A stretch of DNA of 33,756 bases from an uncultured bacterium (lineage in GTDB: Bacteria; Patescibacteriota; Gracilibacteria; Absconditabacterales; Absconditicoccaceae). Of the stretch, positions 1,409-27,552 are shown piece after piece (the first letter of the stretch is position 1; every line of letters starts with the position of its first letter). The position numbers were made by a program, and so were the translations under genes. Where the stretch lies: NCBI GenBank assembly GCA_937862935.1, contig CALMEO010000081.1, positions 1 through 33,756 of the forward strand, in the 5' to 3' direction. The notes under the pieces were generated by a model. The model was not told where the DNA came from. It was given only the letters and a program-made list of their open reading frames with translations, and did no database searches.

Positions 1409-4048
1409 ATGTGATTATTTGGAAGCAGTGAAAAACATTATGTATACTTTTTTGGTGAAACCAAAGGTCTCGGAAAGGATATCTTGGGAGGTAAAGGAAA
1501 AAATTTGTCAGAAATGGTGGAAATGTGACTCCCTATTCCTAGTGGATTTACTATCACAACAGAAACATGTGATTTGTATTACAAAAGTAATAAAACATAT
1601 CCACAAATAGTCTTGGATCAAATTGAGGAAAAGCTTCAAAAACTTGAAAAAGTTATGGGGAAAAAACTTGGAGATCCTGTTGACCCATTATTGGTCTCTG
1701 TAAGATCTGGAGCTGCTGATTCTATGCCGGGAATGATGGATACTATCCTCAATCTTGGACTCAATGACGAATCTGTACAAGGATTGATTACCAAAACCAA
1801 CAATCCAAGATTTGTCCGAGATAGTTATAGAAGATTTTTGCAAATGTTTGGTGATGTGGTAATGGAGGTTCCTCATCATGATTTTGAGCATGCGCTTCAA
1901 TCGGTAAAGGATGCTAAGTGAGTAAAACTTGATACGGAACTTGATATAGCTGATCTTCAACAAGTTGTTGCTTTGTATAAAGAAGTAATTCAAAAAGCTA
2001 CAGGAAAATCCTTCCCAACAAATCCAAGAGAGCAATTGCAAATGTCTATCGATGCGGTTTTTGGTTCTTGGAATAATGATAGAGCTATCATCTATAGAAA
2101 ACTCAATGATATCAAATGACTGCTTGGTACTGCAGTAAATATCCAAGCTATGGTGTTTGGAAATATGGGAGAGACTTCATGAACAGGAGTGTGTTTTACA
2201 AGAAATCCATCAACAGGAGAAAATAAATTTTATGGAGAATTTTTGATGAACGCTCAAGGAGAAGATGTGGTTGCTGGTATTAGAACTCCTTTGGAAATTG
2301 CAGAACTTGATAAAATCATGCCTGCTTGTTATAAAGAACTTGTAGATATTTATCATGGACTAGAAAAACATTATAGAGATATGCAAGATATGGAATTTAC
2401 TATCGAAGAATGAAAACTCTATATCCTTCAAACAAGAAATGGTAAAAGAACGGCTGCAGCAGCTATCAAGATGGCAGTAGATATGGTAAAGGAATGACTT
2501 ATTGATGAAAAAGAAGCAGTGCTTAGAGTAAAACCAGAACAATTGGATAGTTTACTTCACAAACAAATAGATCCTACGGCTAAGATTACTGCAGAGTTGC
2601 TTACTAAATGACTTCCTGCTTCACCATGAGCTGCAGTGGGACAGATTGTCTTTAGTGCACAAGCTGCTCATGATCGAAATGAAGAAGGAAAAAAAGTCGT
2701 TCTTGTCAGAACAGAAACATCTCCAGAAGATATCGTAGGTATGGTAGCTTCTCAATGAATATTGACTGCTAGAGGAGGTATGACCTCTCATGCAGCGGTT
2801 GTTGCTAGAGGAATGGGGAAAAGTTGTGTAGCTGGAGCAGGAGAAATTATTGTTAGTGAAAAAGATAAAACTTTGATTGTCAAAGGAAAAACATACAAAG
2901 AAGGTGATGTTATTACCTTAGATTGATCAACCGGAGAGGTATTTGCCAGCGCATTAGCTGTAGTTGATCCAGAACTTAGTGGTGATTTTGCAACGCTTAT
3001 GACCTGGGCTGATAACTATAAAAAACTTTTGGTAAGAACAAATGCTGATACGCCACATGATGCTGAAGTAGCAAGAAAGTTTGGTGCGCAGGGGATCGGT
3101 CTTTGTAGAACAGAACATATGTTCTTCGCTGAAGATAGAATCAGAGCAGTCAGAGAAATGATTTTGGCAGACGATGTTGATGGAAGAAAGAAAGCATTAG
3201 CAAAAATATTACCTTTTCAAAAAGAAGATTTCATTGGTATATTAAAAGCTATGGCTTGATTACCAGTGACTATTAGATTCTTAGATCCTCCATTACATGA
3301 GTTTTTGCCTCAAGAAGAAAAAGATATTGTTGAACTTTCTCAAACTATGGGAGTTGATCTCGAAGTCTTAAAAAAGAGAATCGAAGCGCTTCATGAATTT
3401 AATCCTATGCTTGGACATAGAGGATGTAGATTGGTCGTTACCTATCCTGAGATAGCAGAAATGCAAACAGAAGCAGTGATTTCTGCAGCATGTGAACTCA
3501 AAAAACTAGGAGTAGATGTGAAGCCAGAGATTATGATTCCATTAGTCGGATTTAAATCAGAATTGGACTTCAATACAGAAATCGTAAGAAAAGTTGCTCA
3601 AACAACTATGGATACGTACGGTGTACAAATTGATTATAAACTCGGAACTATGATAGAAGTACCAAGAGGTGCAGTGACTGCAGACAAGGTTGCTGAAACT
3701 GCCGAATTCTTTTCATTCTGAACAAACGATCTTACGCAAATGACTCTTGGATTCTCGAGAGATGATGCTGGTTCATTCATCAAGGAATACGTTAACAAAA
3801 ATATTTTTGAAAAAGATCCATTCCAGACATTAGATACGGAAGGTGTTGGTCAATTAGTACAAATGGCTATTGAAAAAGGAAGAAAAACGAGACCTGATAT
3901 CAAACTTGGTATCTGTGGAGAACATGGTGGAGATCCAATGTCTATCGCATTCTGTCATAAAGTTGGATTGAACTATGTAAGTTGTTCGCCATTTAGAGTA
4001 CCTATCGCAAGATTGGCTGCTGCTCACGCTGCACTTAAAAATAACTAA
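1409..4048 (+). CDS. ppdK: Pyruvate, phosphate dikinase
   Basis: Cytoplasmic enzyme that interconverts pyruvate + ATP + Pi with phosphoenolpyruvate + AMP + PPi, linking lower glycolysis to PEP. Read with TGA as Gly the frame gives 879 aa, normal for the family. Seen: the N-terminal ATP-grasp region ([26 protein letters not shown], residues ~11-36, here quoted across a TGA-free stretch), the phosphohistidine motif [15 protein letters not shown] with His461, and the C-terminal PEP/pyruvate barrel with ICGEHGGDP and SCSPFRVP (Cys859 at the catalytic position). The start ATG at 1409 is the first after an in-frame TAA at 1394; its second codon is TGA. No clear Shine-Dalgarno sequence is visible. 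A strong terminator follows, so it is probably transcribed alone. Many internal glycines are TGA, which breaks it into at least five pieces under the standard code. Confidence 0.96.
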
Positions 4049-4103
4049 TAACTACTAGTGAATAACTACCAGTGATGGAAAAATTCTATCTGATTATAAA
4101 AAG

Positions 4104-4131
4104 AACGTTGAGAGAAATCTCGACGTTTTTT
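4104..4131 (+). terminator. Rho-independent terminator of ppdK
   Basis: A 10-bp stem (AACGTTGAGA / TCTCGACGTT, one G-T pair) with a GAAA tetraloop runs straight into a T tract, 55 bases after the ppdK stop codon. Confidence 0.85.
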
Positions 4132-4248
4132 ACTTGTATTTTTTTTATAAGTACACTCGCAAATACCATAGTTTTTTTTAGAATTTTCTTTATAAGAGGT
4201 ATTATTTATGACTAGATTGTTTTTTTTACTTTTTATCTAGGGATTTTT

Positions 4249-5211
4249 ATGAAACTTTCTACTTTATTTCAACATTCTCGTCCTAGATTTTGGCATTATC
4301 TTTATGGTCCTATGATGATCTGGTGAGCATATTATTTTTCTTCTAATAGTGATGTATTTACTCAAACATGATGATCTATGTGGTTTTTGATTTTTGCGTT
4401 TATTTTCTTTTTTCTTTCTTTTGTAGTATATTTTACTTTCCCAGCAAATCTTTTTGTCTATTGAGTAAATGATTTTGCTGATTATGATACTGACAAATTC
4501 AATACTAAAAAACAATGATATGAAAAGGTTCTTCAAACCAGGAAATCTTTTCTTTTTATCGTCTTTGCTGTACAGATAGGGTATTGGCTACTGATGGCAT
4601 TGCTCTATTTTTTTGTGTTTCTTCTTTCTGCTAAAATATCACATTTTACTGAAATACTTTCTTATCTTTCAGATTTTAGTCTTATCTTTTTGAGAATTTT
4701 TGTCTTGGTCTTGTTGCCATTTTTGCTCTTATCTTGGCTCTATAGTTTTGAACCTATAAGATTTAAGAAAAGGATATTTCTCGATGGTATCAGTAATGTC
4801 TTGTATATTATTACCCCTACAATTCTTATTTGATTGATGCAATGATATACATCATTTCAAGATATTTCTCCTCTTTTTTGGATGTGATTTGCGGCGGCAT
4901 GGCTTTGGTGTATAGCAATGCATTGTTTTTCTGCTATCCCTGATATCGCTTCTGATGCTAAAGCTGGGCTCAAAACAACTGCAATATTTCTATGAAAACA
5001 ATGATCTTTGCTGTATTGTATTGCTCTTTATGCTCTTGCATGAATCTTAGCAGCTCAGGTTATAGGTCCTGTATGATATGTCTTGTGACTTATCTACTGC
5101 GTTATGGTATTTTTATGATTTTATTATGATCTGTTTAAAATATATAAACGATTTCCTTATATCAATTTTTTTATAGGTTGATTTCTGTGTTTTCGGATAT
5201 ATTTTATGTAA
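4249..5211 (+). CDS. UbiA-family prenyltransferase, candidate lycopene elongase of the carotenoid cluster
   Basis: Integral membrane prenyltransferase of 320 aa. The first Asp-rich motif reads NDFADYDTD (N74, D75, D78, D80, D82), and a second conserved motif reads DIASDAKAGLKTTA (D232, D236); these bind the Mg-diphosphate of the prenyl donor. The remainder is hydrophobic segments with few charges. It sits 30 bp upstream of crtB and is followed by crtI, all on one strand. UbiA members next to crtB/crtI in actinobacteria and haloarchaea add C5 units to lycopene to make C50 carotenoids, so lycopene elongase is the inferred role; a quinone or other polyprenyl acceptor cannot be excluded. Several glycines, as in IWGAYY and QTGGSM, are TGA. 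Start at the ATG that opens the frame; no strong ribosome site is seen. Confidence 0.8.
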
Positions 5212-5241
5212 TATTTTACATTTATCGTTAAATTGTATGTT

Positions 5242-6228
5242 ATGATAAGGTACGTTTTTCGTATGTTTCGTTATGGTTTCAGCTATTTTATAGCTACGAT
5301 TTTTTTCCCCAAAGACATCCGTCAGGCCGTTTTTACCTTGTATTCTTTTGTGAGAGTACCTGATAATATTGTTGATGTTGTTGATGGTTGATTTGATATA
5401 AAATCAACTACTATATATTGCGAAAATAAAGAATGCTGATTTGCAGATACTAAGAATATCTGTACACAAAGGTGTAGAAAAATGCTTCTTACTCATTATC
5501 TCTCTGCCTATAAACAATTGGGGGAATATTATAAAAAATGGAATCATGCGTTTCACAATAAAGATAGAGAAGATAGTCAATTTGGTGAATATGTTAGATT
5601 ATTTGAAGCGTATGCTATTCCTTATGAGTATTCTACATCATTTTTTCAAAGTATGATCAGTGATTGTATCGTAAATAGATATCAAACCTATGCGGAAGTA
5701 GAAAAATATATGTATGGTTCTGCATCTGTTATTTGACTTATGATGTGTTCTCTTATGTGAGTAGATAATAATCGTGCATTGAAGTATGCTCGTATATTAT
5801 GAGATGCTATGCAATTTACCAATTTTTTGAGAGATATTCACGAGGATATTGTTTATTTGGATCGTATTTATCTTCCTGCTCAAGACTTGAAAAAATATTG
5901 ATTGGATCATGAAGATATTGTTGCTTTTTCTGATGATTTTGCTCGTAGAGATCTCAAAAAATGGTCTGCTTTTCAATCGTACATGAAAGCACAGATACTG
6001 TTTTGTCGTACTTTGTATAGACAAGCAATGAAATGATATCCTTATCTGTCTTTGGAAGCGAGAAAAGCGGTATCACTTTCTTCTTTGTTGTATCAAGAAA
6101 TATTGGCTAAGATAGAAAAAAACGATTACGATGTTTTTTCTTTGAGTGCAAAAACTAGCTTTTGGGATAAATTGGTGGTGTGGTGGAGATGGAAAAGAAC
6201 TGTTTCTGTATCGCTTATTAAAATGTAA
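5242..6228 (+). CDS. crtB: Phytoene/squalene synthase family protein (phytoene synthase)
   Basis: Head-to-head condensation of two GGPP to phytoene, the first committed step of carotenoid synthesis; membrane-associated. 328 aa. The family blocks are visible in order: FFPKDIRQAVFTLYSFVRVPD, the first Asp motif DNIVD (D41, D45), GSASVIGLMM, and the second motif MQFTNFLRDIHED (D198, D202), followed by DRIYLP. Squalene synthase shares this fold, but the neighbouring desaturase crtI argues for phytoene. The ATG at 5242 is chosen; an alternative ATG lies 21 bases further in. Glycines such as in SVIGLMM and ILGDAM are TGA. It is the middle gene of a tightly spaced cluster: 30 bp after the UbiA gene and 44 bp before crtI. 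Confidence 0.92.
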
Positions 6229-6272
6229 CTACTACTCACTTCTCTGTCTTTTTTATCTGTATTTTCGTTCAT

Positions 6273-7778
6273 ATGAAAAAAACAATCACTATAGTATGAT
6301 GAGGAATATGATGATTAGCGACTGCTATATTGCTTGCTAAACAGTGACATAGCGTATCTGTCTATGAAAAAAATGAATGCCTATGAGGAAGAGCAAGTAT
6401 TTTTTCAGAAAAATGATATACCTTTGATATGTGACCAAGTCGATATTTGATGCCAGATTTGTTTGAAGAATTTTTTGCTTCTATTGGGGAAAATATTACT
6501 GATCGATTGACCTTGGAAAAATTGAGTCCTAGTTATAAAGTATTTTATCCCAAGCAGTTTGGGTCAGCATTGTCTAGTGAATCATTATCTTCTATGAATG
6601 TCTATGCTGATATAGATCGTATGGCTGGTCAATTTGAGTCTCTGGAAGTGTGATCTGGTCAGAGATTCAAAAAATTTCTTAAAAATTCTTGAAGACAGTA
6701 TACGATAGGTATGGAATTTGCCAAGAGAAATTATGACTCTCTTTTTGATTTTTTTAGACTGGATATTGCTCGAAAATGATTACAGCTTAATATCTTTACT
6801 ACTATAGACAAGTATGTTGCTAGATTTTTTACAACAAGAATCCTTCAAAAGATTATGCAGTATACTACCGTTTTTTTGGGTACTCCACCTAGCCAGACTC
6901 CAGCTTTATATAATATTATGTCCTATGTTGATTTTGCTATGGGTGTTTGGTATCCTAAAGGTTGATTGCATAGTATAGTACAGGTGCTCAGAGATATAGG
7001 ATTGAAATATGGAGTCAAATATTATCTTGATAGTGAAGTTACTCAAGTTGTAATCCTGGATAATACAGTTTCTGAACTTGTATTGTCTGATTGACGTGTT
7101 GTTGCTTCTGATTTGTTCGTTATCAATGCTGATCAGGCATGGTTTGAAACTACACTTTTACCAGCATCGTTTCAGACATATTCTCAATCATTTCGAGATA
7201 AAAAAATATTTGCACCTTCATGATTTATTATTTATGCTGGTATAGATAAGAAACTCCCCAATTTTGAACATCATAATCTCTATTTCAATGATGATTGGAA
7301 TAAGAGTTTTGGTGATATCTTTGACCGTAAATTATTGCCTGAAGATCCTTCGATATATGTTTCTATGATATCCAAGACTGATCTGTGATCTGCTCCAGCA
7401 TGAAAAGAGAATCTTTTTGTTTTGGTTCCTATTCCCAACGGAATAATCATATCTGATGAACAGAAATCTACGTATCGTGATAAAATTTGGACTATTATAG
7501 GAAATATGGCAGGAGAAAAAATTGTTTCGCATATAGAATATGAAAGAATGTTTGATGTCTCTGACTTCAAAGAGAGATATAATGCTTGGAATGGTACTGC
7601 TTTGTGATTGGCACATACCATGCTGCAGACAGCATCATTTCGTCCCAATAATTATAGTAAAAAGCTACATAATCTATTCTATGTGTGACACAACACTAAT
7701 CCTGGTATTGGTGTCCCTATGGTTATTATAAGTGCTCGTCTGGTGGTAGAGAGGATGCAAAAAAGATGAGTCCTTTAG
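6273..7778 (+). CDS. crtI: Phytoene desaturase (CrtI type)
   Basis: FAD-dependent desaturase/isomerase that converts phytoene to lycopene or related products. 501 aa, normal for CrtI. The N-terminal Rossmann fingerprint reads ITIVGGGIGGLATAILLAKQGH, with Gly9, Gly10, Gly13 and Gly14 encoded by TGA and only Gly11 by GGA; this one site settles the genetic code. GGRASIF and the FDMGPSRYL block follow. The C-terminus has the diagnostic GLAHTMLQTASFRP and the FAD-closing HNTNPGIGVPMVIISA. The gene ends at TAG, 130 bp before the end of a convergent minus-strand gene. Product specificity (number of desaturations) cannot be read from sequence. No cyclase follows, so an acyclic product is likely. Confidence 0.94.
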
Positions 7779-7847
7779 TTTTTATCAACAATACGTTCCA
7801 AATTACGTTGCTAATATGTTTTTCTCTATGTGGTATATTTTTTGCTT

Positions 7848-7882
7848 ATAAAAAAAACTCCATCCCAAATACGGGAGGAGTT
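7848..7882 (-). terminator. Terminator of the 185-aa orphan gene (may also stop crtI)
   Basis: An imperfect stem pairs AACTCC with GGAGTT and, inside it, TCCC with GGGA. Read on the minus strand it is followed by eight T. On the plus strand no T run follows, so its effect on crtI transcripts is uncertain. Confidence 0.7.
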
Positions 7883-7907
7883 GTTACTACTACTGGATTT
7901 ATGTTAT

Positions 7908-8465
7908 TTACTGAAACAACGATTCGCCAAGTGTTTTTCCATTTTTGCTTATGAAACCATTAATTTCTTGTTTGATGTCTTCCATCATTAGATTATGGAA
8001 TTCGCCCATTGATTTTTTTGCTTTGAGATCCTGTATATGTGATAAAGACAGTAGATCTCTATTGAATTCGGAACTCAAAAAAATGTTTGTTTTTGTCGCG
8101 GAATAATGAATAGTTTTTCCGATTTTAAACCTTCTGAGTTTTGCTTTGTTTGAAACAAAAGAATGATGCTTCTCTGCTTTGTGACAGTCTCTGCCACAAA
8201 CTTTTAGTGTAGCATAGAAGCGGCCAAATTTACAAAACAATTCGGGATTTTCTATTTTCAATCCTTCTTTGATTTTGCTTAGCAATTTCAGCTCTTTGTC
8301 CTGGAAACGAGTTGCTATGTCTATTATTTTAAGCAATGTTTCCACCTGATCACTTTCTTCGGTGTGATTACTAAGTACTGTGTTTATGTTATTTTGAAAC
8401 TTAGTAATTACTCCTTTCGGAGTACATAATTTCCGAAGCTGAGCTTCTGATTTATTTTTTTTCAT
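7908..8465 (-). CDS. Hypothetical protein with a Cys/His cluster and no TGA codons
   Basis: 185 aa, not recognised. Basic and lysine-rich, with no signal peptide or membrane segment, so presumably cytoplasmic. Around residues 90-102 the sequence CGRDCHKAEKHH could bind a metal. The rest is predicted mostly helical by eye, with a central stretch rich in K, E and L. All of its roughly nine glycines use GGN codons and none uses TGA, unlike its neighbours; the sample is small, but it fits recent acquisition from a standard-code organism. It is a single gene, convergent with crtI and divergent from ksgA, with its own terminator. The start ATG at 8463-8465 opens with MKKNK. Function unknown. Confidence 0.75.
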   Translation of the reverse strand: MKKNKSEAQLRKLCTPKGVITKFQNNINTVLSNHTEESDQVETLLKIIDIATRFQDKELKLLSKIKEGLKIENPELFCKFGRFYATLKVCGRDCHKAEKHHSFVSNKAKLRRFKIGKTIHYSATKTNIFLSSEFNRDLLSLSHIQDLKAKKSMGEFHNLMMEDIKQEINGFISKNGKTLGESLFQ

Positions 8466-8528
8466 ATGTTTTGTTTTAGAACACTATAAATAGGTATTTC
8501 CCATTAAATGTCAATAAAAACTTGTTTG

Positions 8529-8558
8529 CACCCCGACTTTCTTCGGCAGGTCCGGGTG
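8529..8558. other. GC-rich hairpin in the divergent spacer upstream of ksgA
   Basis: CACCC pairs with GGGTG and, past a C-C mismatch, GACTT pairs with AGGTC around an 8-base loop. It stands out in a spacer that is otherwise very AT-rich. It lies 64 bp before the 185-aa gene on the minus strand and 67 bp before ksgA. No T run follows on either strand, so a leader or protein-binding structure is as likely as a terminator. Confidence 0.4.
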
Positions 8559-8624
8559 GATTTATAAGGTAAGCAAATTAATCTTGAATTTGATTGTTAT
8601 TCTTTAATCTGTATACATATCTCT

Positions 8625-9395
8625 ATGTGAACATATTTATGACAAAACTTTCTTATCGATACCAAAATCAGAAGTTATATCGCTGATAAGATTTCTGCGT
8701 TATATAAAGAGCTTTGATGTGAAGCTTTGATAGAAATATGACCTGGTAAATGATCTATAACTAAACTTATTCAGACTATTTCACCCCATTTTTTTATGAT
8801 TGATAAGGATCCAACGTTTCGTGATAATTGACAATTGAATATTGAATATGGAGAATTTATTTTGAGTGATGTACTTGATTTAGATGTTGAAATGATGTTG
8901 AAAGAAAAAAAATTGAATCCGGAAAAAACCTTGGTTGTTGGTAATTTACCGTATTATATTACTTCTCCGATTTTGAGAAAATTTTTTGGTTGAAAAAACT
9001 TTGTATGATGATTATTTATGGTGCAAGATGAGGTTGGTCAGAAAATAAAAAGTGATGCGAAAAAGAAATCATATCTTCGATGGTTGCTCAATTATTGATG
9101 TACGGTTACCTATCTCAAATGAGTTCCTGCAAAATGTTTTAAGCCAGCTCCTAAGGTCAAAAGCTGCTTAATTGAATTAAGAATTAAGGATGAAGAATTA
9201 AAAATTAATTGGGAAAAATTTATAGAATTTTTGGAATTGTTTGCCCCATTTAGTAGGAAAACCTTGTGAGCAATTCAAAAAATGATCCAAAAAAAATCAG
9301 AAATTTCTTTTAAAATTCCTTCGGCCTTATTATCTAAAAGACTGGAATCATTGTCTTGGGATGAGTTGACTGTTATATTGGCCCATAAAGCTTAA
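8625..9395 (+). CDS. ksgA: 16S rRNA dimethyladenosine transferase KsgA
   Basis: S-adenosylmethionine-dependent enzyme that dimethylates two adjacent adenines near the 3' end of 16S rRNA during small-subunit assembly. 256 aa, normal length. Seen: the N-terminal LGQNFL motif (residues 5-10), the SAM-binding IEIGPGKGS (residues ~37-44), and the catalytic NLPYYITS starting at Asn107. The start is ATG at 8625 followed at once by TGA; two of the first six codons are TGA-Gly, so a standard-code caller would miss the start. Between residues ~184 and 195 the coding sequence is a run of imperfect heptamers (listed separately). Next to it downstream, 65 bp away, is a small membrane protein gene. Confidence 0.93.
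9174..9208 (+). repeat. Five heptanucleotide repeats inside ksgA
   Basis: Five head-to-tail 7-mers: GAATTAA twice, then GGATGAA, GAATTAA and AAATTAA. They encode the stretch around ELRIKDEELKIN in the C-terminal helical domain. Because 7 is not a multiple of 3, three units give seven residues. Confidence 0.7.
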
Positions 9396-15189: not shown

Positions 15190-16407
15190 TTAATAGATAA
15201 ACTCACCGTATTCACTTTTTATGGTGAGCTTTTTTGTTTCGCTGGCTTCTACATGGCCGATAATTTTCGCTTCTACTTTGAATTGAGCAGCGATTTCAAT
15301 AATCTGATTGGCTGTCTCTTCTGATGATACATACAGTTCCATCCGGTGACCCATATTGAAACTTTTGTACATCTCTTGCCAGGATGTTTTTGATTCCTCG
15401 TGAATCAGTTTGAAGAGGGGAGGAAGATCAAAAAGCATATCCTTGATAATATGTACAGGATCAAAGACATAATTCATAACCTTAGTTTGTCCTCCACCCG
15501 AGCAATGGATGATTCCATTCAGTGTCTTTTTATCAATAGTGTTTAGTATCTTTTTGATGATTGGTGCATATGTTCTTGTCGGTGAAAGGACCAATTTTCC
15601 CACATTGATGGGTTTGTAAAAGCCCTTGCTTAGATCCCATACTGCATTTGGGATTTTGTAATCGAGTTCGTTACTTCCACGATATACCAATTCAGGACAT
15701 TCTGTAAGTAATATAGGATTGAAACTCTCCGGATATTTCTTGATGTATTTTTTACCAAACACATCATGTCGTGCAGACGTCAATCCATTGCTTCCCATAC
15801 CACCATTGTATTCGCTTTCATAACTTGCTTGTCCAAATGATGCGAGTCCTACGATGAAATCACCCGGGTGGATCTTGGCATTGATTACATCTTTTTTGTG
15901 CATGCGACAACTTAAGGTGTGGTCGATTACGATAGTTCGTACTATGTCTCCCACATCGGCAGTTTCTCCCCCGGTACTGTAGATTGGTATTCCAAGTTCT
16001 CTCATCTCTGCCAGAAATTCTTCGGTACCATTGATAATGGTTGCAATCACTTCAGCAGGTATGAGGTGTTTATTTCTTCCGATACTTGATGAAAGTAATA
16101 GTGGAACGTTAACCGCTCCTGCACAGATGAGATCATCGAGATTCATAACAATACTATCTTGTGCAACACCTTTCCATACCCAAAGATCACCGGTTTCTTT
16201 CCAATACATGTATGCTAATGACGTTTTAGTCCCTGCGCCGTCAGCATGCATAATATTGCAGAATGCTTCATCACCACCGAACATGTCTGGCATGATTTTA
16301 CAAAATGCTCTTGGAAAGATTCCTTTGTCTATCTTTTCGATGGCTGCGTGGACATCTTCCTTGTCTGAAGATACACCCCTTCTTGAGTAATCTGATTGTG
16401 TTGTCAT
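15190..16407 (-). CDS. purM: Phosphoribosylformylglycinamidine cyclo-ligase (AIR synthase), no TGA codons
   Basis: ATP-dependent ring closure of FGAM to 5-aminoimidazole ribotide in de novo purine synthesis; cytoplasmic. 405 aa, longer than the ~345-aa E. coli type. Seen: SRRGVSSDKEDVHAAI near the start, the HADGAGTKTSLAYMYWKETGD block, MNLDDLICAGA, IYSTGGETADVGD, the central GMGSNGLTSARHDVFGKKY and IHCSGGGQTKVM. From memory this long form resembles the Bacteroidota-type PurM. Unlike its neighbours it has about 34 glycines and not one TGA; it also uses GGC, GGG and CGG-type codons more freely. It is intact under either genetic code. Eight bases separate it from the 118-aa gene upstream, so the two are probably co-transcribed. 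Confidence 0.94.
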   Translation of the reverse strand: MTTQSDYSRRGVSSDKEDVHAAIEKIDKGIFPRAFCKIMPDMFGGDEAFCNIMHADGAGTKTSLAYMYWKETGDLWVWKGVAQDSIVMNLDDLICAGAVNVPLLLSSSIGRNKHLIPAEVIATIINGTEEFLAEMRELGIPIYSTGGETADVGDIVRTIVIDHTLSCRMHKKDVINAKIHPGDFIVGLASFGQASYESEYNGGMGSNGLTSARHDVFGKKYIKKYPESFNPILLTECPELVYRGSNELDYKIPNAVWDLSKGFYKPINVGKLVLSPTRTYAPIIKKILNTIDKKTLNGIIHCSGGGQTKVMNYVFDPVHIIKDMLFDLPPLFKLIHEESKTSWQEMYKSFNMGHRMELYVSSEETANQIIEIAAQFKVEAKIIGHVEASETKKLTIKSEYGEFIY

Positions 16408-26802: not shown

Positions 26803-27552
26803 TTATTGTAATAACTCTTTAATTATTTTTATTGCTCTTTCTTGGTCTATAAAGTAAGGTGATGTTGCAATAGTGACCAGTTTTGCGTTTTTTATGAGTG
26901 ACTTTATAATGAAAATATCTTCTTGACTAAGCACTTTCCCTACTCGAAAATCTATATCAATGTCGACTATAGTACTTCAAAGCTCAACTCCTCAAGTTCA
27001 AAGCTGTTGTAGGCTATAGTCACTTCTGATTTGTATTACCTTATTGATGATTCATGAATTCGTTGCTGCGGTGATGAAGTTTCCGACATTGGTTTTTGTC
27101 TGTACAAAATCTTCTATGTTGTCTCATCATGTATCATTTGTGATTCGTTTTTCTTTATTGTCTTTGGTGTCTGCATGCTGGTCAATATGAAACACTGTTA
27201 TATGTTCAAACGATCAAACCGTTAAGCGATATTGATTCCAGAAACTTAGCACATGATTATGATTATCTACTATATATATAGGTATTCATTCATATGTTAT
27301 CTGTACAAAATGTTTGAGTCATGTACATGATATTAGTGTAGTATTTACTACTTCTTCAAAGACTATTTCTGATCATTCTTCTAGATCGTCTAAACTACCT
27401 TGTATCAACGGTGGGACAAATATTTTTCCTGTAGATCAAAGCTCGATCCTTTCTTGATAAGAAAATTCATTGTTTCAAATGGGATCTGTAATATAGATTC
27501 AAACTTTGTACATGAACCATTGTACTATTGATAAAAATCCGCTTCTGTGCAT
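26803..27552 (-). CDS. UPF0489-like protein with an arginase-fold-type metal motif
   Basis: 249 aa, soluble. The blocks YIVDNHNHVLSFWNQY, FHIDQHADT, VGNFITAATNSGIINK and VDIDIDFR match, from memory, the UPF0489 (C5orf22-like) family; HIDQHADT and DIDIDF together look like the D-x-H-x-D and D-x-D metal sites of the arginase/deacetylase fold. The enzymatic role of this family is not known to me. Many glycines are TGA, sometimes paired (NDTGGDN), so the gene is well adapted to code 25. The frame is open upstream to 27627, but the first ATG is at 27552, just beyond the holB stop; the gap is 41 bp and the two are likely co-transcribed. Confidence 0.72.

Follow-up and report, generated by a model that had tools for sequence, protein, structure and literature searches.

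The window analyzed here, the entire contig C81 (33,756 nucleotides) of a 1.32-Mb draft bin (G000, 95% complete), carries at 4249-7778 on the forward strand three co-directional open reading frames for a UbiA-family prenyltransferase, a phytoene synthase, and a CrtI-type desaturase, all written in genetic code 25, in which TGA specifies Gly. We predict that this cassette directs the synthesis of a long, red, acyclic C50 carotenoid like those of haloarchaea (bacterioruberin type), with the pathway ending at bisanhydrobacterioruberin or its dihydro precursors, and we put the probability of this reading at a little over three in four. An acyclic C50 pigment had been proposed in a preliminary description of this DNA. 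That proposal stands and is sharpened by the LyeJ type of the prenyltransferase, the bifunctional type of the desaturase, and the failure to find CruF, which together point to bisanhydrobacterioruberin.

A three-gene cassette in genetic code 25

The first gene (lyeJ type, 4249..5211, +) encodes a 320-aa UbiA-family prenyltransferase, the predicted lycopene elongase/1,2-hydratase, and contains 15 in-frame TGA codons. After about 21 to 30 bases it is followed by the phytoene synthase gene crtB (5233..6228, +; 331 aa, 7 in-frame TGA codons, likely start at ATG 5242), and after a further 44 bases by a crtI gene of the CrtID type (6273..7778, +; 501 aa, 19 in-frame TGA codons), which is predicted to encode a bifunctional phytoene desaturase/3,4-desaturase. 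The three proteins match the Pfam families UbiA, SQS_PSY, and Amino_oxidase with E values of 4e-15, 5e-50, and 8e-30, respectively, and NCBIfam places the third in the phytoene desaturase family. These matches and the code-25 reading frames confirm the gene trio named in the preliminary description, and its reading of TGA as Gly in all three genes was likewise correct.

Translation of 4249-7778 with table 11 yields only fragments, with ORFs of at most about 150 aa, and the contig reaches a coding density of 0.92 with code 25 but only 0.53 with code 11. TGA accounts for 71% of the Gly codons in the UbiA gene, 58% in crtB, and 49% in crtI, a usage at least as high as that of most neighboring genes. 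Elsewhere in the window, an AIR-synthase-related (PurM-like) gene (15190-16407, minus strand) has no TGA among its 33 glycines and a GC content of 0.40, unlike its neighbors; it may have been acquired recently from an organism that uses the standard code. A UPF0489 protein encoded at 26803-27552 (minus strand) has a weak match to peptide arginases.

The cassette lies between ppdK (pyruvate phosphate dikinase, named from sequence; 1409..4048, +) and ksgA/rsmA (rRNA adenine dimethylase, identified by the Pfam RrnaAD match and synteny; 8625..9395, +), the conserved left and right borders of a variable slot. A terminator-like stem-loop with a 14-pair stem and a T run (4100..4131, +; a consensus match only) separates ppdK from the cassette. 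It is followed, upstream of lyeJ, by a promoter-like site (TTTAGA-17-TATTAT, 4177..4205, +), a weak consensus match in a region where such sites are no more numerous than in shuffled sequences. The hairpin and the weak site after it suggest that the cassette is probably transcribed on its own, apart from ppdK.

Assignment of the three enzymes

The UbiA-family protein is predicted from its sequence to be a LyeJ-type lycopene elongase, which would catalyze C5 addition and 1,2-hydration of lycopene. In a 103-row tree, it falls with Haloarcula japonica LyeJ and with proteins from Acidobacteriota, further CPR bacteria, and haloarchaea. E. coli UbiA, MenA, and CyoE lie apart, as do the remaining Ha. 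japonica members of the UbiA family; the LyeJ references, like most reference sequences in this analysis, were gathered by similarity to the query, so the grouping is partly built in, while the outgroups are independent. The only rows labeled as outgroup on the LyeJ side of the tree are copies of LyeJ rows. LyeJ-like UbiA proteins encoded beside CrtI in two Flavobacteriaceae, Kordia (L117) and Aureitalea (L118), form a separate, well-supported pair.

The best NCBIfam model for the window protein is NF009516 (176 bits), a model named only "prenyltransferase" whose curated cutoff of 205 bits, which the protein does not reach, serves for calibration and does not define LyeJ. Ha. japonica LyeJ, used for calibration, also has NF009516 as its best model, with 455 bits. 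On NF009608, the CrtEb-type model, the window protein scores only 82 bits. An Arthrobacter plasmid elongase, called CrtEb type from its model and its crt neighbors, shows the reverse order, with 470 bits on NF009608. The preliminary description had matched the cassette to C50 loci of both haloarchaea and actinobacteria; the haloarchaeal match holds, and the match to actinobacterial CrtEb fails in the model scores.

These scores led us to reject a decaprenoxanthin-type cluster. A cyclic C50 route of the actinobacterial kind (decaprenoxanthin or sarcinaxanthin type) is very improbable: lycopene elongases there are also UbiA-family proteins, but the window protein and the Arthrobacter protein rank the two models in opposite order, and neither the window nor the annotated neighbors of related cassettes include a cyclase. 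The scan of the window proteins, in which no lycopene cyclase was found, agrees with the earlier remark that the window holds neither a GGPP synthase nor a cyclase.

The motifs NDxxDxxxD (N74-D75-D78-D82) and DxxxD (D232-D236) of the UbiA-family protein are invariant in the sequences of 36 relatives. Its AlphaFold model has a mean pLDDT of 88.8, and the best PDB matches to the model are UbiA homologues. The cassette protein is the only UbiA-family protein found in G000, and none was found in the congener G008 (99% complete), which makes a role in quinone or heme synthesis unlikely. A quinone/heme prenyltransferase was therefore rejected on the basis of the tree and because G000 yielded no second UbiA-family protein. 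The protein groups with lycopene elongases in the tree and the model scores, and not with the quinone or protoheme prenyltransferases that the preliminary description had raised as the contrary outcome. It is also quite unlikely that the protein is no elongase and serves an unrelated prenylation, leaving CrtB and CrtI to produce an acyclic C40 pigment (lycopene or 3,4-didehydrolycopene). The elongase function does depend on resemblance to haloarchaeal LyeJ (about 33% identity), but clustering with LyeJ, the occurrence of the same operon in relatives, and the lack of a second UbiA-family protein in the genome argue for the LyeJ assignment.

CrtB retains both Asp-rich motifs, DxxxD and NFLRDIHED. 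Its residue corresponding to Phe26 of CrtM is Thr, which haloarchaeal CrtB proteins share. Substitution of F26 in CrtM leads to C40 production (PMC13304436). The NCBIfam models give no decision for CrtB, with HpnD at 125 bits and CrtB at 117 bits, both far under cutoff. The desaturase scores 546 bits on NF058655 (CrtID) versus 439 bits on crtI_fam; it is under the CrtID equivalog cutoff of 640 bits, so we call it CrtID-like and do not file it as CrtID. Ha. japonica C0507 shows the same order (CrtID, 764 bits; crtI_fam, 503 bits), and Arthrobacter CrtI shows the reverse (454 and 546 bits, respectively). For both scores below cutoff (176 of 205 bits on NF009516 and 546 of 640 bits on CrtID), equivalence is judged by best fit. 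Disruption and complementation have shown that C0507 and D1086 of Ha. japonica perform both desaturation steps (PMC11946383). The sequence of the window desaturase fits the bifunctional phytoene/3,4-desaturase CrtID better than a four-step CrtI. A C30 (CrtM/CrtN) pathway was ruled out by the CrtB pocket residue and the model scores. Clustering of CrtB and CrtI with squalene or diapophytoene enzymes, the other contrary outcome that had been foreseen, was not what we found: CrtB has the Thr, and CrtI matches the CrtID and CrtI models.

Predicted product and precursor supply

The catalytic steps, end product, membrane location, and precursor source that we infer for the cassette pathway are as follows. 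CrtB would join two GGPP to form phytoene, which the CrtID-type desaturase would convert to lycopene before later adding the 3,4 double bonds. The LyeJ-type protein would extend lycopene by C5 at both ends and hydrate it at C1. In the absence of CruF, synthesis would end with a membrane pigment, either bisanhydrobacterioruberin or its dihydro precursors. GGPP would probably be supplied by a short-chain prenyl synthase encoded on contig C41. The C5 units would probably originate in a host or prey cell and might arrive as HMBPP, to be reduced by the bacterium's own IspH.

CruF (PF04240), which carries out the final step to bacterioruberin, was not found in G000, in any congener, or in the related genome G039 by a search that was positive in eight other genomes of the family, nor is it adjacent to the cassettes of G000, G005, and G039. 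These three genomes (95%, 96%, and 81% complete, respectively) together form one LyeJ clade. Because CruF is absent, we predict bisanhydrobacterioruberin or a close precursor and not bacterioruberin itself. A full bacterioruberin pathway in which CruF is unassembled or replaced by an unrelated hydratase is unlikely. Several family members, among them the sister lineage G017, have CruF together with the cassette, and the assembly of a draft bin only 95% complete could lack CruF, a cyclase, or IPP genes. However, three CruF-less members of one clade, lacking the gene both in the genome and beside the cassette, fit one loss. In Acidobacteriota, L075 (2883-4217, minus strand) and other loci encode a fusion of CruF with a NUDIX domain (isopentenyl diphosphate isomerase-like) beside lyeJ, crtI, and crtB.

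The rhodopsin search suggested in the preliminary description gave no match in the G000 genome, and a retinal/rhodopsin role there was rejected. A code-25 relative of another family (G181) has at L043 (contig C1, 3835-9191) a CrtID-like CrtI, CrtB, and a 683-aa fusion of lycopene cyclase and beta-carotene 15,15'-dioxygenase domains, with a type-1 rhodopsin gene adjacent; its sequence makes it an apparent retinal cassette in a CPR genome. The rhodopsins of G181 (L043 8349-9191) and G016 (L056) carry the residues N-D-Q (RYLNWLIDVP..LLxQ), positions that we take to be the markers of sodium pumps in known rhodopsins. In contrast to L043, rhodopsin-bearing Saccharibacteria have been reported without blh (PMC9296517).

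A genome-wide check for a GGPP synthase, also proposed earlier, found a PF00348 short-chain prenyl synthase on contig C41 that is, from its sequence, a plausible GGPP source. This enzyme is 82% identical to that of the cassette-free congener G001, which marks it as a general enzyme and led us to reject a dedicated GGPP synthase. It has Met five residues before DDxxD, where most cluster-embedded relatives have Phe and that of G043 has Met; the residue appears compatible with a short-chain enzyme and is no proof of a GGPP product. Across the family, a polyprenyl synthase is present in 14/14 genomes with CrtB versus 18/35 without it (Fisher P = 0.0008, uncorrected for kinship).

Searches for IspG, HMG-CoA reductase, and GHMP kinases revealed no IPP pathway. 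IspG and HMG-CoA reductase were not found in any of the 29 family genomes tested, and GHMP kinases, which would include IspE and the mevalonate kinases, were not found in G000. IspH with its conserved Cys, His, Glu, and Ser-Asn motifs, as read from sequence, is encoded in eight of the nine genomes of the genus. In G000, it is an orphan gene with intact motifs on contig C77 (L208 418-1329, minus strand). The preliminary description had looked for the precursor elsewhere in the genome or in a host cell: the prenyl synthase is indeed in the genome, while no pathway to IPP was found there. An intact IspH in the absence of IspG, HMG-CoA reductase, and GHMP kinases suggests scavenged precursors, and the economical hypothesis is that C5 units are taken up, perhaps as HMBPP. 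The cassette-bearing bacterium is probably host dependent. A fuller scheme, which we offer as possible but tentative, is that a host-dependent CPR bacterium that lost both the MEP and mevalonate pathways retains only IspH, the last enzyme of the MEP route, and uses it to turn HMBPP from its host or prey into IPP and DMAPP, feeding the prenyl synthase and LyeJ-CrtB-CrtID to form a C50 membrane pigment. Partial MEP pathways with nonisoprenoid roles are known (PMC13001223). A Gracilibacteria bin that uses the standard code (G168) has mevalonate and carotenoid genes in one block (L042 2607-12307), the former for HMG-CoA reductase, a kinase, diphosphomevalonate decarboxylase, IDI, thiolase, and an HMG-CoA synthase-like protein and the latter for LyeJ, CrtI, CrtB, and GGPP synthase.

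Distribution and comparison with known systems

The congener G005 (L026, uncultured bacterium Loc090907-5m_bin-782) has the same three genes in the same order and in the same chromosomal slot, from ppdK to ksgA, with protein identities of 83%, 75%, and 85% and no notable difference from the window. The dN/dS ratios between G000 and G005 are 0.13 for UbiA, 0.27 for CrtB, and 0.11 for CrtI. Retention in G005 and these low ratios show that the cassette genes are under purifying selection. It is therefore hardly credible that the cassette is a decaying or nonexpressed relic, a reading that could appeal to its sporadic occurrence in the genus (two of nine genomes) and to the seemingly frame-split CrtB of the relative G039, but that conflicts with the dN/dS range of 0.11 to 0.27 and the intact protein motifs. 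The G039 CrtB (L037 8078-9132) lies in two overlapping frames, through either an assembly error or a broken gene.

Phytoene synthase was not found in the remaining congeners. Four of them have unrelated genes or next to nothing in the ppdK-ksgA interval (window 4049-8624): G004 has folate-type genes, so named from sequence, and G001, G003, and G006 have other genes. The slot is therefore a site of gene turnover. The window also encodes there a 185-aa protein (7908-8465, minus strand) with no Pfam match and no TGA among its nine glycines, for which tblastn found no counterpart in the ppdK-ksgA region of the congeners.

Across the family, in which the named bins are "Candidatus Absconditabacterales," CrtB is present in 14 of 49 genomes. 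Nine of these 14, G000 and G005 included, encode a LyeJ-like UbiA, CrtB, and CrtI within a few kilobases, and the cassettes of relatives often have a polyprenyl synthase and CruF nearby. The UbiA and CrtI trees agree on the order (((window, G005), G039), G017). This concordance and the TGA usage support a long residence of the cassette in the code-25 lineage, as the preliminary description had supposed from TGA and as the relatives across the family now indicate.

An intact haloarchaeal-type C50 operon is thus placed in a code-25 CPR lineage that includes Absconditabacterales bins. Operons of this kind occur across the code-25 family and in other CPR groups, coupled to genomes that yielded no IPP pathway. 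The source of isoprenoid precursors in reduced, host-dependent bacteria, and why these are spent on pigment, can now be tested. We found no literature on carotenoids in Gracilibacteria beyond a study of Lake Baikal (PMC9948471), and the Vampirococcus paper makes no mention of isoprenoids or carotenoids.

Actinobacterial C50 clusters (CrtEb, decaprenoxanthin type) likewise have a UbiA-family elongase beside crtB and crtI, but CrtEb belongs to the other model, NF009608, and the scan of the window proteins showed no C50 cyclase. The closer likeness in motifs and best NCBIfam models is to the haloarchaeal bacterioruberin pathway of Ha. japonica (c0507, CrtI/CrtD; c0506, LyeJ; c0505, CruF; PMC11946383), with which the window shares a LyeJ-type UbiA, a CrtID-type desaturase, and CrtB. 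The window differs in having no CruF, in its gene order lyeJ-crtB-crtI, in its code-25 CPR host, in a sequence identity of only about 33%, and in a genome without a detected IPP pathway. In the Baikal study, lyeJ, crtD, and cruF were reported in CPR bacteria, the same superphylum and the same kinds of genes as here, mostly unclustered: the Baikalibacteria genes are not in an operon, and a Saccharibacteria genome has a distant cruF (PMC9948471). In contrast, the window has a tight operon in a code-25 lineage, with crtB adjacent and no cruF. What is new relative to that report is the missing IPP pathway, the CruF-less clade, the tight code-25 operon, and its family-wide spread.
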